A DNA stretch of 29,419 nt from a bacterium (lineage in GTDB: Bacteria; UBP7; UBA6624). Below are positions 15,594-20,133 of the stretch, one piece after another. Under the pieces are notes generated by a model that had not been told where the DNA came from, did not search any database, and saw only the letters and a list, made by a program, of their open reading frames with translations. The number at the start of each line of letters is the position of its first letter. The first letter of the stretch is position 1. Both the position numbers and the translations under genes were made by a program. The stretch is taken from positions 1 through 29,419 of the forward strand of contig JACNFQ010000056.1 of the NCBI GenBank assembly GCA_014384545.1. The letters run 5' to 3'.

Positions 15594-15914
15594 ATGATCA
15601 TGAAACAGGCAGTCGTTGAAACCGCAGGGACCCAAATGCTCCTTCGGGAAGGAGAGTCTGTCATTACAGATCTCCGAGAAGAAGGTGTGGGAATGGAGGT
15701 CATTTTGGATTCCGTTCTTCTTCTTGTGGATGGGGATACGGTCAAGGTTGGAAAACCCGTTGTGGCTGATGGGAAAGTAACCTGCAAAGTTGTTCGTCAT
15801 TTCAAAGACAAGAAAATTCGTGTTCAGAAATTCAAACCAAAGAAGAACTACCGGAGGGTGATTGGTCATAGACAACGATACACCGAGCTTCGCGTGGTGA
15901 AGATAGAGGGCTAA
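15594..15914 (+). CDS. rplU: 50S ribosomal protein L21
   Basis: 106 residues, the usual size. It starts [14 protein letters not shown] (family MYAVIKTGGKQ), continues [17 protein letters not shown] with the basic [26 protein letters not shown]-binding tail. ATG 15594 follows GGGAG by 6 bases; ATG 15600 is an alternative that would remove two residues. Co-transcribed with rpmA 2 bases downstream. Confidence 0.97.
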
Positions 15915-15916
15915 AG

Positions 15917-16171
15917 ATGGCGCATAAGACAGGACAGGGAAGCACCAAGAATGGACGTTCCACCATTGGAAAGCGATTGGGTGTGAAACGGGCAGATGGA
16001 CAATGGGCCAAAGCGGGAGCGATTCTTGTTCGTCAACGTGGCAAAGGAATCCATCCAGGCACTCATGTGGGTATCGGCAAAGACTACACTCTCTTTGCGT
16101 TGGTAGATGGGCGCGTCTCTTACCGCCCAGCCCGCGGCGGGAAAACCGTCGCCATTGTCTCCCCTGAATAG
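15917..16171 (+). CDS. rpmA: 50S ribosomal protein L27
   Basis: 84 residues beginning [14 protein letters not shown], followed by [29 protein letters not shown]. The N-terminal arm of L27 reaches the peptidyl-transferase centre. No extra N-terminal leader of the Firmicutes type, so no processing is expected. Near-complete family match. Followed by, and slightly overlapping, the degenerate obg gene, as in most bacteria. Confidence 0.98.
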
Positions 16172-17018
16172 TCCCCGTTCAAGATTCGTTGACTCCTGCT
16201 CCTTTGAGGCAAGTGGTGGTAAGGGGGGAGATGGTTTCCTTTCCTTCATGCGTCAAAAACATCGTGCCCGTATGGGGCCTGACGGAGGGGATGGTGGCAA
16301 GGGGGGCAATCTCATTTTCTTTGGGAACGCAGGACTGCCCGACCTTTTCTTACTCAAGAAACAAGGCAAAGCAATTGCTCCTGCTGGGGCTGGTGGGGGC
16401 AAGAAGAACTGCTCGGGAAAACGAGGTTCGGATTTGCGAGTAGGTCTACCTTTAGGTACACGGATAGAAACGGCTCATGGTCAGATTCTCGCTGATATCC
16501 TTGACAAGAACGACGAACTTGTTCTCAAAGGGGGAATGGGGGGGAAGGGGAATGCTAGGTTTGCCCACTCAAAGAATCGCTCTCCCCGAAAGACGACCCA
16601 AGGAAAATTGGGCGATCGTCACAACCTCTTGCTAAGACTTTTCTTACCGTGCAACACCCTCCTTCTTTCTAGGGGTTCTGAAGCGAGGAGTGCCCATACC
16701 TGTGTGACGGGGCGAACGCACCCCAACGAAATCACCAACCCCCTTCCTGGTGTTCTCGTAGACCCTGTTTGGGGACATGAGACCATTCTCCTCCTGCCCA
16801 AGATGGCAAACGGGGGTGGTTTGGGTGCGTCGTTTCTCCACCATGGTCATAGAGCAGAGAGAGTCGTTTGGGTTGGGACGGCTCCTCCCCCACCCCTTCA
16901 AGAGGAACTGGAAGTGAGATTTTCGGACAAGAGGCTCATTCATTGGGGGGAAGGAACTTGGAAGAAAGCCGAAAAGTGGGAAGCGGATGAGACTTGGAAA
17001 CACCATGCCACCCTCTAG
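16155..17018 (+). CDS. obg: Obg-family protein with intact Obg fold but degenerate, truncated GTPase domain
   Basis: Obg normally binds the 50S subunit through a Gly-rich N-terminal fold and is switched by GTP. Here residues about 11-165 keep that fold ([54 protein letters not shown]). The frame then continues without a break, but the G domain is eroded. The P-loop GxPNAGKST aligns gaplessly to SRGSEARSA (172-180), so its glycines are lost and its Lys is Arg. The switch I YPFTTL segment is deleted. The G3 DIPGLIEGA is replaced by [10 protein letters not shown], while the following helix [17 protein letters not shown] still resembles GLGxxFLxHIERxRVL. NKxD (G4) and G5 are absent. Length is 287 against about 330-480 in the family. 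No ATG exists near the homologous start; TTG 16155 (CTG 16164 possible) is assumed. GTP hydrolysis is not expected; 50S binding may persist. Confidence 0.85.
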
Positions 17019-17592
17019 TCTCAACCCGCAAGACAAGTCCGCCTTGTATGGGGGTTCCTTTGACCCCTTTCATGAGGGACATCGTATCGTTATTGAAACG
17101 GCGCTAGAAGCAGGGTATGGTCCCATTTTTGTCTGTCCTGCAGCACAGGTTCCAGGAAAAGGTGAGACCATAGCATCGGGAAGAGACCGACTTGAGATGA
17201 CCCGCCTAGGGACGGTGGGGCTAGAGAGGATTCAAGTTGATTCTTGGGAGATTACAGAAGGTGGTATCTCTTATTCCACCCAAACCTTGGACTACCTTAG
17301 AGAAGAGAAAAGGTGTGGGCATCTCTCTCTCCTCTTGGGAGGAGATGCTGCCACCACCCTTCCTCAATGGCGAGATGGAGAACAGATTCTGAAGACGACA
17401 CCTGTTGTGATTGTCGCTCGTCCCGGATTTGATTTGCCCTCCTACAAACACTCGTTTTTGCCCTCTCCCCAGTTAGAGGTCAGCTCCCGTTCCATCCGAG
17501 AGAGCCTTGTGAAGGGCAAGACTCCCCCTCCCTCTTGGCTAAATCCCCTCGTTCTTGCCCACATTCGGGCTCGGGGGTTGTACACTAACTGA
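17005..17592 (+). CDS. nadD: Nicotinate-nucleotide adenylyltransferase
   Basis: 195 residues; adenylylates nicotinate mononucleotide in NAD synthesis. Nucleotidyl-transferase motif GGSFDPFHEGH (16-26), LLLGGDAATTLPQW, and the C-terminal SSRSIRESL motif (family ISSTxIR). ATG 17005 has GGAAA upstream; ATG 16987 would add 6 residues. The start lies inside the end of the obg gene. The order obg-nadD-LCP-rsfS is conserved in many Gram-positive bacteria. Confidence 0.95.
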   Translation: MPPSSLNPQDKSALYGGSFDPFHEGHRIVIETALEAGYGPIFVCPAAQVPGKGETIASGRDRLEMTRLGTVGLERIQVDSWEITEGGISYSTQTLDYLREEKRCGHLSLLLGGDAATTLPQWRDGEQILKTTPVVIVARPGFDLPSYKHSFLPSPQLEVSSRSIRESLVKGKTPPPSWLNPLVLAHIRARGLYTN

Positions 17593-18407
17593 TGACGGTT
17601 TTTCAGAAAGTGCTCAACCTCGCTATTTTGGGAGCACTCTTAGGGGGAACTCTCTTTCTTACCTTTTTCTCTAAACCCTTTCAACAGGAGAGGTCTGAGA
17701 CGATTCTCATTGTGGGGCTAGATGATGCAGCTGGTTTGCCCGATACGATACTCTTAGTTGCGTTGCCCCCTCAAGGTGGTGCCCCTCGCGTCCTCTCTAT
17801 TCCTCGAGACACCTTGATGGCGATGGGCACCACAGGGGCAGATCGAATCAACCATGCCTGGGCACGGGGTGGAGAAGCAGGATTGAAAGGTGTATTAGGG
17901 CGTTTGGCTGATATTGAGATTGACCGATACATCGTTATTAGCATGTCTGATCTCGTGGGGTTGGTGGATCGTTTGGGTGGTGTTCTTGTGGATGTGCCCA
18001 CAGCAATGACCTACACCGATGAAGCGGGAGGGGTCAAGATTGACTTGGGGGCAGGACCCCAAACTCTGGATGGCGAGGGGGCGGTCGCTTTTGCACGATT
18101 TCGGGGGGATGCCTTGGGAGATATCGGTCGCGTCTCCCGCCAACAGATGTTGGGCCATGCACTCTTGGTCGCATTCAAGAATGCCACTCTACCAACCCAA
18201 TGGAATGCAGCGCGGACTCTCTTGACTGATGCGAAGACAGATATCCAGTTTGAAGAAGCACTCGTTATGATTTTTCGCACACGGGGAGAGAGACCGCTCA
18301 CTGAGATTCTTCCCGGCTGGTTTCACGAGTACGATCCCTATTGGCATCCGGACATGACAAAACTGAATCTTTGGCTTAGAGATGCACTGGGAGCGAATTC
18401 CCCATAA
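17592..18407 (+). CDS. LytR-CpsA-Psr (LCP) family cell-wall ligase
   Basis: 271 residues with an N-terminal membrane anchor (about 8-27) and an extracytoplasmic LCP domain. LCP proteins attach teichoic acids, arabinogalactan or similar polymers from lipid carriers to peptidoglycan. Family landmarks: ILIVGLDDA, DTILLVAL, VLSIPRDT (catalytic-pocket Arg), RINHAWARGG, GGVLVDVP and AFARFRGDALGDIGRVSRQQ. The ATG shares one base with the nadD stop and the gene overlaps rsfS by one base. Presence supports a cell wall with polymer ligation, as in monoderm bacteria, though LCP also occurs elsewhere. Confidence 0.92.
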   Translation: MTVFQKVLNLAILGALLGGTLFLTFFSKPFQQERSETILIVGLDDAAGLPDTILLVALPPQGGAPRVLSIPRDTLMAMGTTGADRINHAWARGGEAGLKGVLGRLADIEIDRYIVISMSDLVGLVDRLGGVLVDVPTAMTYTDEAGGVKIDLGAGPQTLDGEGAVAFARFRGDALGDIGRVSRQQMLGHALLVAFKNATLPTQWNAARTLLTDAKTDIQFEEALVMIFRTRGERPLTEILPGWFHEYDPYWHPDMTKLNLWLRDALGANSP

Positions 18408-18766
18408 TGGCAAAAAAAAGACCTCTCGCACCGTCGTTGCAGGACAAGGTTGCACGATTCCTCTTGGAGGAACTGGCAGAAGAGGTCGTTCTCTTTGAGG
18501 TCAAAGAAGGCCTATCTTGGACAGACGCTTTTGTACTGGCTACAGCTCAGAATCGCGTCCATTTGGGGACACTTAGGGCTAGTGTGAAGAAATGGGGAAA
18601 GACGGAAGGTCTCTTTGCCGTACCCGAAGGTCAATCCCCAGAAACAGAGTGGTCTTTGTTGGACCTAGGCTCCGTCGTCGTTCATCTCTTGACGCCAGCC
18701 GCAAGAGACCGATGGGATCTAGATGCGCTCTTTGCAGATTACCCTAAGGTAGCGTACAATGACTAG
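18407..18766 (+). CDS. rsfS: Ribosomal silencing factor RsfS
   Basis: 119 residues. RsfS binds L14 on the 50S subunit and blocks subunit joining when nutrients are scarce. Family segments: LSWTDAFVLATAQNRVHLGTLRASV and WSLLDLGSVVVHLLTPAARD followed by WDLDALFADYP. ATG overlaps the LCP stop by one base. The 3' end contains the promoter of tRNA-Ala. With obg, rplU and rpmA it makes this a 50S-related locus. Confidence 0.95.
   Translation: MAKKRPLAPSLQDKVARFLLEELAEEVVLFEVKEGLSWTDAFVLATAQNRVHLGTLRASVKKWGKTEGLFAVPEGQSPETEWSLLDLGSVVVHLLTPAARDRWDLDALFADYPKVAYND
18732..18760 (+). promoter_or_regulatory. Promoter of tRNA-Ala inside the end of rsfS
   Basis: TTGCAG (18732-18737), 17-base spacer, TACAAT (18755-18760); the tRNA begins 13 bases after the -10 box. 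Confidence 0.5.
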
Positions 18767-18845: not shown

Positions 18846-18870
18846 GATTTGAGGTTTTTTGAGGTTAATT

Positions 18871-20133
18871 ATGAATAAGAAACTTTACTTTTGGCTCGTC
18901 CCTGGAGCATTTTTGATGTTTTTGGGTATGCTACCTGGACAACCCGACATCGTCCATCTATCGTTCAACCCCCCCGTCGGCGGCGACCCCATGCGGTATG
19001 TTCTCAGGGCACAGTCTAGGGGAGAAGTTTGGGCTCATGACGACACCGCAAACGCTTCGGAGTTTACAGCGATTCAAGGTTTTACCCAAGCCATTCTTAG
19101 TGAAAACGTAGTGGGCGACGAGTTCGAAGTTTCGCGTTCTGTGCTACGCTTTGATGATTACTTTTATCAGAGGGAAGCGTTCGATGTATCCGGTGGTGGC
19201 GGCGTGGATGGAGATGGTGGAGAAGAAGGAGGGGGCGAAGGACTAGGTGGAGGAGAAGGGGGAGAGGGTGGAGGTCCTGGTGCAGGGCGTCCTCCAGGAG
19301 GTGGTGACGGTGGAGGTCCTGGTGCAGGGCGTCCTCCTTCTTCCAACGACCCCTTTGGTGGAGGTGCAGGAAGACCACCTGGTGGAGGTGGTGGTGGTGG
19401 AGCAACAGCACCCACCCCCAGTTCTGGTGAGTATGCCGATTTACTTGAGGGCGAACATACTTTGATTCGGAACCGCAACGGAGAAGTTTTGACCTCTATG
19501 GGGATTGACCTAGAGTTGATTAAGGACGAACGAGAACGAGGAAATGTTTCGTTGAGCCAGTTGATGGAGTATTTCCATATTCTTCGGTTCCCCAACAGCC
19601 GTGTGCGCTTGGGACAGACTTGGGTTGCACCTGTCTATCTTACGATTCCAGGTTTGAGAACGCTCCAACGGATTGATTTAGAGTTTCGGTTGCCGATTAG
19701 GGATTCAATGGCTGTTTCGGGGCAGTTTGGAGGAGGGAGAATGATGAATCTTCCCAACTTCAAGGCTTACCGCTTTTCACCTTCCTTAGTCGTTGATATA
19801 TTTGGTCATTCTGCTTTTGAGGGAGATGAAGAAGATGTAGATGGTGATTGGCGCACAAAGCGTTCTTTTGAAGGAACGATGGATCTCCAGGGTCGGGTTT
19901 ATATCAATTCGCTAACAGACGAGCTTTTGGACCTCCTTTTACAGATTCAGACAAATATGCGCGTCAACGAAGACCGTCTCCCGGAAAACGAAGCGTACCG
20001 GAGCAAGACAAGTCTCCGTGAGATCGTAAGCCACGGGATGTCCATCATGGTTTGTGAAGAGCGTGCGATGATGGGAACCACGAGTTTGGGTGGTGCTTCT
20101 TGCCCCATCGGACATAGTGATTCTGGTTTCTGA
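18871..20133 (+). CDS. Exported or membrane-anchored hypothetical protein with Gly-rich linker
   Basis: 420 residues, not recognised. ATG 18871 has TGAGG 7 bases upstream. Residues 1-22 form a signal or anchor helix (MNKKLYFWLVPGAFLMFLGM). An N-terminal domain (to about 105) and a C-terminal domain (from about 187) are separated by an 80-residue Gly/Pro-rich linker (107-186) with three GAGRPP motifs. The C-terminal part is rich in beta-like strands (VRLGQTWVAPVYLTI, IDLEFRLPI, GRVYINSL) and has no catalytic motif I can name; two cysteines lie near its end. The domain layout (two globular parts joined by a flexible hinge) suggests a surface or envelope protein. It overlaps a tiny zinc-ribbon gene by one base, so the two are likely co-expressed. 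Confidence 0.75.
   Translation: MNKKLYFWLVPGAFLMFLGMLPGQPDIVHLSFNPPVGGDPMRYVLRAQSRGEVWAHDDTANASEFTAIQGFTQAILSENVVGDEFEVSRSVLRFDDYFYQREAFDVSGGGGVDGDGGEEGGGEGLGGGEGGEGGGPGAGRPPGGGDGGGPGAGRPPSSNDPFGGGAGRPPGGGGGGGATAPTPSSGEYADLLEGEHTLIRNRNGEVLTSMGIDLELIKDERERGNVSLSQLMEYFHILRFPNSRVRLGQTWVAPVYLTIPGLRTLQRIDLEFRLPIRDSMAVSGQFGGGRMMNLPNFKAYRFSPSLVVDIFGHSAFEGDEEDVDGDWRTKRSFEGTMDLQGRVYINSLTDELLDLLLQIQTNMRVNEDRLPENEAYRSKTSLREIVSHGMSIMVCEERAMMGTTSLGGASCPIGHSDSGF
19267..19337 (+). repeat. 29-bp direct repeat encoding the GGGPGAGRPP motif
   Basis: Two exact 29-base copies (19267-19295 and 19309-19337), 42 bases apart start to start, hence in frame. They make the linker prone to expansion and contraction by slippage or recombination. 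Confidence 0.9.

Follow-up and report, generated by a model that had tools for sequence, protein, structure and literature searches.

The only Obg protein found in UBP7 bacteria keeps the Obg fold and lacks the GTPase motifs

Obg is regarded as a universal GTPase that is usually essential. The N-terminal fold of ObgE mimics the acceptor arm of an A-site tRNA and binds the peptidyl-transferase centre (PTC), recognition of which is put down to this N-terminal domain; substitutions at K27/K31 or R136/R139 nearly abolish binding of ObgE to the 50S subunit, and apo ObgE binds 50S weakly, the binding being strengthened by guanine nucleotides, above all ppGpp (PMC4028186). On the pre-50S particle the GTPase domain of ObgE is contacted by RsfS, and ObgE assists the folding of helix H89 and the incorporation of uL16 and bL36 (PMC10693566). 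A 2025 survey of ribosome biogenesis factors, based on gene presence, found obgE in more than 99% of genomes outside CPR, and loss of obgE within CPR (PMC12641178).

The window analyzed here, by which we mean the whole stretch of 29,419 nucleotides, comes from a 1.39-Mb draft genome that is 79% complete and belongs to UBP7, a marine candidate phylum about which little is known. An earlier note on this DNA had described an Obg with a dead GTPase domain in the canonical rplU-rpmA-obg locus. A scan of named genome contigs with the single protein gave no match; a scan with the C-terminal alignment matched two UBP7 contigs. Two UBP7 relatives (isolate SP4379, UBP7_UBA7824), both metagenome assemblies from another genus of the same family, encode a 279-amino-acid Obg that is also P-loop-less, with the same locus order as in the window. 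The UBP7 sample consists of these three genomes, all incomplete drafts (completeness 79, 86 and 62%).

The obg locus in UBP7

The gene order at the window locus is rplU-rpmA-obg-nadD-lytR-rsfS, with the rplU and rpmA neighbors expected of Obg/CgtA, and rsfS is encoded nearby in all three UBP7 genomes.

15594-15914, plus strand: rplU (bL21), PF00829 match at 4.6e-27
15917-16171, plus strand: rpmA (bL27), its stop overlapping the obg start (ORF list, sequence); also upstream of obg in both relatives
16155-17018, plus strand: obg, single copy, with an eroded G domain (ORF list, sequence); the only PF01018 match in the genome
16987-17592, plus strand: nadD, overlapping the obg end, PF01467 match at 1.2e-17
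17592-18407, plus strand: LytR-CpsA-Psr family gene, PF03816 match at 1.5e-30
18407-18766, plus strand: rsfS, ribosomal silencing factor, PF02410 match at 6.6e-18

Comparison of start contexts left two options for obg in the window, a TTG at 16155, from which the product counts 287 amino acids, or a CTG at 16164 that overlaps the rpmA stop and lies at a position common to the window and both relatives. Neither ATG nor GTG occurs near the start in UBP7 (window 16155-16170; 7385-7407 in L032; 7751-7773 in L033), and only ATT or CTG precedes the Obg fold in the relatives. Given that in each of the three genomes a CTG equally distant from the residues FVD overlaps the stop codon of rpmA, coupled translation from a rare start codon is suggested. 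Further downstream, a gene at 18859-20133 in the window contains a long glycine-rich low-complexity stretch, and its counterparts in the relatives (L032, L033) carry at this place a stretch rich in Asp and Gly between conserved flanks.

The Obg fold and the remnant of the G domain

The following features of the obg product were located in the window.

16188-16640, plus strand: intact Obg fold (PF01018, profile 1-153 of 155, 1.0e-39)
16257-16259, plus strand: Lys equivalent to ObgE K27, a loop 1 PTC contact (alignment with E. coli ObgE)
16575-16592, plus strand: loop 3, NRSPRK, whose Arg residues correspond to R136 and R139 of ObgE; invariant in UBP7 (alignments)
16623-17015, plus strand: remnant G domain of about 131 amino acids, conserved between genera, dN/dS 0.14 between the two relatives
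16668-16694, plus strand: former P-loop (G1), SRGSEARSA; SNDTLCLDV / SNDILCLKV in the relatives (alignments)
16785-16814, plus strand: former G3/switch, [12 protein letters not shown], in which DxPG has lost its Asp and Gly (alignment)
16818-16868, plus strand: helix that follows G3, [17 protein letters not shown], with LHH and the next Ala invariant in UBP7 (alignments)

As the earlier note had claimed, the frame at 16155-17018 is unbroken and the Obg fold well kept (PF01018, 5.5e-39): PF01018 (GTP1_OBG) covers residues 28-178 of the 303-amino-acid frame counted from the ATG at 16107, and a Pfam search of that frame returned no GTPase-domain family. The NCBIfam Obg equivalogs align mainly with the first half of the protein and stay far below their cut-offs; TIGR02729 scores 145 bits in the window and 145 to 149 bits across the three UBP7 genomes, below its equivalog cut-off of 280.25 bits. 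When residues are numbered by an E. coli ObgE sequence typed from general knowledge, several of the basic residues that touch the PTC are kept in UBP7 Obg, namely the equivalents of K27, R136 and R139. At the K31 position the window has Arg and the relatives have Ser; the loop-2 residues R76 and R82 are K and R in the window only, basic residues not being kept here in the relatives.

The P-loop of Obg/CgtA has the form GxPN[AV]GKS[ST], in place of which the window reads SRGSEARSA and the relatives SNDTLCLDV. SRGSEARSA aligns to GFPNAGKST without a gap, just as had been proposed, and a gap falls immediately after the P-loop; in alignment with intact Obg proteins, the P-loop position of the window protein reads [10 protein letters not shown]. 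G3 is likewise gone, DxPG being replaced by LxPK in the window and by LxPK or IxPN across UBP7. Switch I had been described as deleted; it has lost its threonines and is shortened, but only by a few residues, and there is no clean deletion. Both NKxD (G4) and SAK (G5) are absent from the window Obg frame aligned with intact Obg proteins, and the claim that G4 and G5 are missing needs only a narrower wording: the residues KRLIHWG in the window may be a persisting remnant of beta-5, in which case the residues of G4 and G5, together with the domain's end, would be what is missing. The helix after G3 is recognizable in the alignment, as noted before. A pattern match in the relatives, GAGGDGKT, was rejected as a P-loop candidate, since it lies near residue 13, inside the Obg fold.

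These losses bear on the possibility that non-canonical residues of the remnant still allow binding of a guanine nucleotide, leaving the protein a weak kind of switch. The window keeps R-S at the place of the P-loop K-S, and the Obg proteins L077 and L083 of another lineage have changed Lys to Arg while retaining the remainder of the P-loop. However, the relatives have no G1-like residues, none of the three UBP7 genomes retains G3 or G4, and the base-recognition motif and the G5 end are lost, making such a switch decidedly unlikely.

We compared the remnant with G domains by Smith-Waterman alignment, using 500 shuffles for each comparison. The window remnant scored 60 against the intact G domain of L066 (shuffle maximum 58) and also exceeded the shuffles against the two Lys to Arg G domains, L077 (68 versus 65) and L083 (64 versus 50); scores against four other intact Obg G domains fell inside the shuffle range. 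The remnant of one relative (G001), taken alone, gave no signal against intact G domains. A profile of the three remnants, part of which is the end of the Obg fold, found one intact Obg among 290 genomes (E 8e-4), and hhalign matches of the remnant profile to intact G domains were weak (P about 0.01-0.04). Structure prediction, which the earlier note had proposed, gave two AlphaFold models from the three sequences with poor confidence (mean pLDDT 49 and 44). At this low confidence, the first model runs strand, helix, strand, strand, helix, strand, helix, strand, helix, an order that resembles a G domain lacking its final strand and helix. Foldseek ranked Obg structures first for the model; the T. 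thermophilus Obg crystal structure 1udx aligns across both halves (model residues 11-278, 239 residues, Z 7.8, rmsd 8.7), most of the score being driven by the Obg fold. Given the poor quality of the models, the fold matches serve only as support. Based on its place after the Obg fold, the scores above shuffles with three domains, and the G-like order in the models, we conclude that the C-terminal half of the window protein descends from a GTPase domain.

Conservation within UBP7 and Obg in other lineages

Between the two UBP7 genera, the remnant is recovered by BLASTP at 1e-14 over 94 residues, and the C-terminal halves reach a Smith-Waterman z of 22.5 relative to shuffles, which puts the similarity beyond chance. 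Global-alignment identity of these halves (27% versus a shuffle mean of 24) does not discriminate, and local scores were therefore used. Invariant across the genera are PC-T, TGR, N, GV-V, E-ILL-P, LHH and A. As the local G+C of the two genera differs (52% versus 35%) and even their Obg folds are only 46% identical, these residues are not a by-product of close kinship. With the codons closest to the overlaps with rpmA and nadD excluded, dN/dS between the two relatives is 0.14 for the remnant (bootstrap 0.07-0.25), compared to 0.11 for the Obg fold (0.06-0.17) and 0.04-0.21 for neighboring genes, and thus purifying selection acts on the eroded half in the two relatives. The window copy is too distant for dN/dS, and selection on it is read from conservation.

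Low C-terminal identity between genera (27%, versus 46% for the Obg fold) is what would be expected of a decaying pseudogene or near-useless relic, in which the C-terminal half would drift after the loss of GTP control, leaving the N-terminal half, or no part at all, in use. Yet the normal enzyme NadD diverges just as much (27.8%), the frame is unbroken in all three genomes, residues remain invariant across genera with the high z score given above, and the remnant dN/dS of 0.14, with an upper bound of 0.25, argues against a pseudogene. The earlier note had named close relatives with a normal G domain as the sign of such decay; both relatives are P-loop-less. We regard a pseudogene as highly improbable. 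The chance that assembly or sequencing error, or chimeric binning, produced the eroded gene is negligible: all genomes are drafts and both relatives derive from metagenomes, but the same state and locus recur in three separate assemblies from two genera with 52% and 35% G+C, and change between the relatives is patterned like that of a selected gene, so that this explanation, also anticipated earlier, is refuted by the relatives.

A second, intact Obg, or an Obg-type G domain acting in trans, could have been missed in drafts that are only 79, 86 and 62% complete. A profile search found PF01018 only once in each of the three genomes, known GTPases account for the PF01926 matches examined, and the canonical locus itself carries the eroded gene. 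If the gaps are independent, absence from all three by chance has a probability of about 1% (0.21 x 0.14 x 0.38), and we consider a missed Obg very unlikely. In sum, the Obg fold is intact, G1, G3, G4 and G5 are absent, this state is common to both UBP7 genera, and no second Obg was found in the three genomes.

Other UBP7 GTPases, named from sequence and length, have intact P-loops (Der (both), RbgA, HflX, MnmE, FeoB, IF2 and EF-Tu), and the loss is thus specific to Obg. RelA/SpoT is present in all three genomes; ppGpp is probably made, yet it would not act via UBP7 Obg as it does on ObgE. Era, otherwise deeply conserved, does not exceed the TIGR00436 cut-off in any of eight genomes searched, which are 62-96% complete and comprise the three of UBP7 (G000, G001, G002) and five of the second phylum described below (G018, G306, G165, G406, G407).

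Across several hundred genomes surveyed for Obg, chosen low-scoring matches were examined among the matches listed, and most of the Obg proteins so examined carry a P-loop. In a second phylum, Obg is P-loop-less in eight of the eight genomes with an Obg match (10 genomes, three families). Similar to UBP7, these proteins (G018, G165, G406 and others) keep the Obg fold and have lost the P-loop and NKxD, the remnant is conserved within the phylum, no Era scores over the cut-off, and rpmA adjoins in three loci (L085, L086 and L100). Unlike UBP7, they have a remnant with a distinct conserved core (RPR, LP, HLY/HAYW), and the C-terminal part is longer; pairwise tests found no significant direct sequence similarity between the UBP7 and second-phylum remnants. 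A third lineage, family f149 (G150, G288), resembles UBP7 in that the P-loop lysine is replaced (PNAGRST / PNGGRS), but the rest of its G1-G3 region is near normal and Era is present (TIGR00436). Its Obg proteins, L077 and L083, with Arg for Lys in the P-loop, have no Obg-type NKxD at G4 and perhaps represent an earlier stage of GTPase loss.

An RpoB tree with UBP7 and the second phylum as one clade has a p-AU of 0.515 and a lnL difference of 0.01, and a single loss common to the two is neither shown nor rejected; placing the Lys to Arg lineage in one clade with them was rejected (p 1.2e-06). We tentatively entertain, as possible though somewhat doubtful, that the ancestor common to UBP7 and the second phylum had already lost Era and the GTPase activity of Obg, and that this whole bacterial lineage matures its 50S subunit with a non-GTPase Obg. 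If true, the RNA-probing fold would be the essential part of Obg and the GTP switch dispensable. As a separate observation, the PF00562 match in RpoB begins at profile positions 15-30 in UBP7 and the second phylum (L118-L127) and at 1-5 in other genomes sampled, possibly an RpoB peculiarity common to the two.

Two reverse cases were seen in the survey, with the Obg P-loop intact and part of the fold not matched: profile 78-143 in L090 (G042, 293 amino acids) and 38-68 in L089 (G224, 299 amino acids). The first pattern matches in L002, L016 and L088 lie inside the Obg fold and were rejected as P-loops; L002 and L016 have a normal P-loop further downstream.

A possible switch-free Obg and its comparison with known systems

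With nucleotide-binding motifs lost and the domain kept by selection, as seen in dN/dS between the two relatives and in invariant residues, UBP7 Obg is a putative pseudoGTPase. Taken as a whole, we think it probable that the sole UBP7 Obg is a conserved pseudoGTPase aiding 50S maturation without a GTP switch. It would still bind immature 50S by inserting the three loops of its Obg fold into the PTC, assist helix H89 and the catalytic centre in settling, and hold the 30S subunit off, acting constitutively and free of GTP or ppGpp control. The shrunken G-like domain may be retained as a docking piece for the stalk base, the sarcin-ricin loop or RsfS, and release would occur by displacement as the subunit matures instead of by GTP hydrolysis. 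A 50S factor that acts through the N-terminal fold independently of GTP, as the earlier note had supposed, would fit both the kept PTC residues and the biochemistry of ObgE. Since guanine nucleotides strengthen binding of ObgE to 50S (PMC4028186), a nucleotide-free form might bind poorly.

Alternatively, the remnant could be a binding site for another ligand or protein, with the whole protein in a new, non-ribosomal role, and the conserved motifs PC-T, TGR and LHH, absent from intact Obg, are consistent with this. Against it, the order with rplU, rpmA and rsfS and several PTC-contacting residues are kept, and Obg is otherwise nearly universal, with no replacement seen. We therefore consider a new role unlikely and prefer the pseudoGTPase acting on 50S.

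The UBP7 obg gene is present, conserved and single-copy, yet its product cannot be a normal GTPase. The loss of the GTP-binding parts from a gene kept under selection suggests that the job of Obg is feasible without a GTP switch. The UBP7 protein separates the PTC-acting Obg fold from the GTP/ppGpp switch, which is hard to do by laboratory genetics, and UBP7 proteins offer natural material to test which Obg function is essential. The literature searched, which covers the field in part, yielded no published Obg without a GTPase domain.

Among known systems, Obg/CgtA/ObgE (PF01018 plus a G domain; TIGR02729) shares with UBP7 Obg the fold, the rplU-rpmA-obg locus, the single copy and, in loops 1 and 3, the equivalents of K27, R136 and R139 for the PTC, and differs in the motifs, UBP7 having no P-loop, G3, G4 or G5, a G domain of only about 131 amino acids, and a score of 145 bits versus an equivalog cut-off of 280. 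The eukaryotic AAGAB pseudoGTPase domain, like the UBP7 remnant, has a G-like fold without nucleotide-binding motifs, but it belongs to an unrelated family with an unrelated function and gave one weak structural match (9ddt, Z 3.2). The mitochondrial Obg homologues GTPBP5 and GTPBP10 also place an Obg fold on H89 and the PTC in large-subunit assembly but, unlike UBP7 Obg, are both described as GTPases (PMC10693566). Finally, CPR bacteria have lost the obgE gene itself, whereas UBP7 has kept the gene and lost the GTPase.
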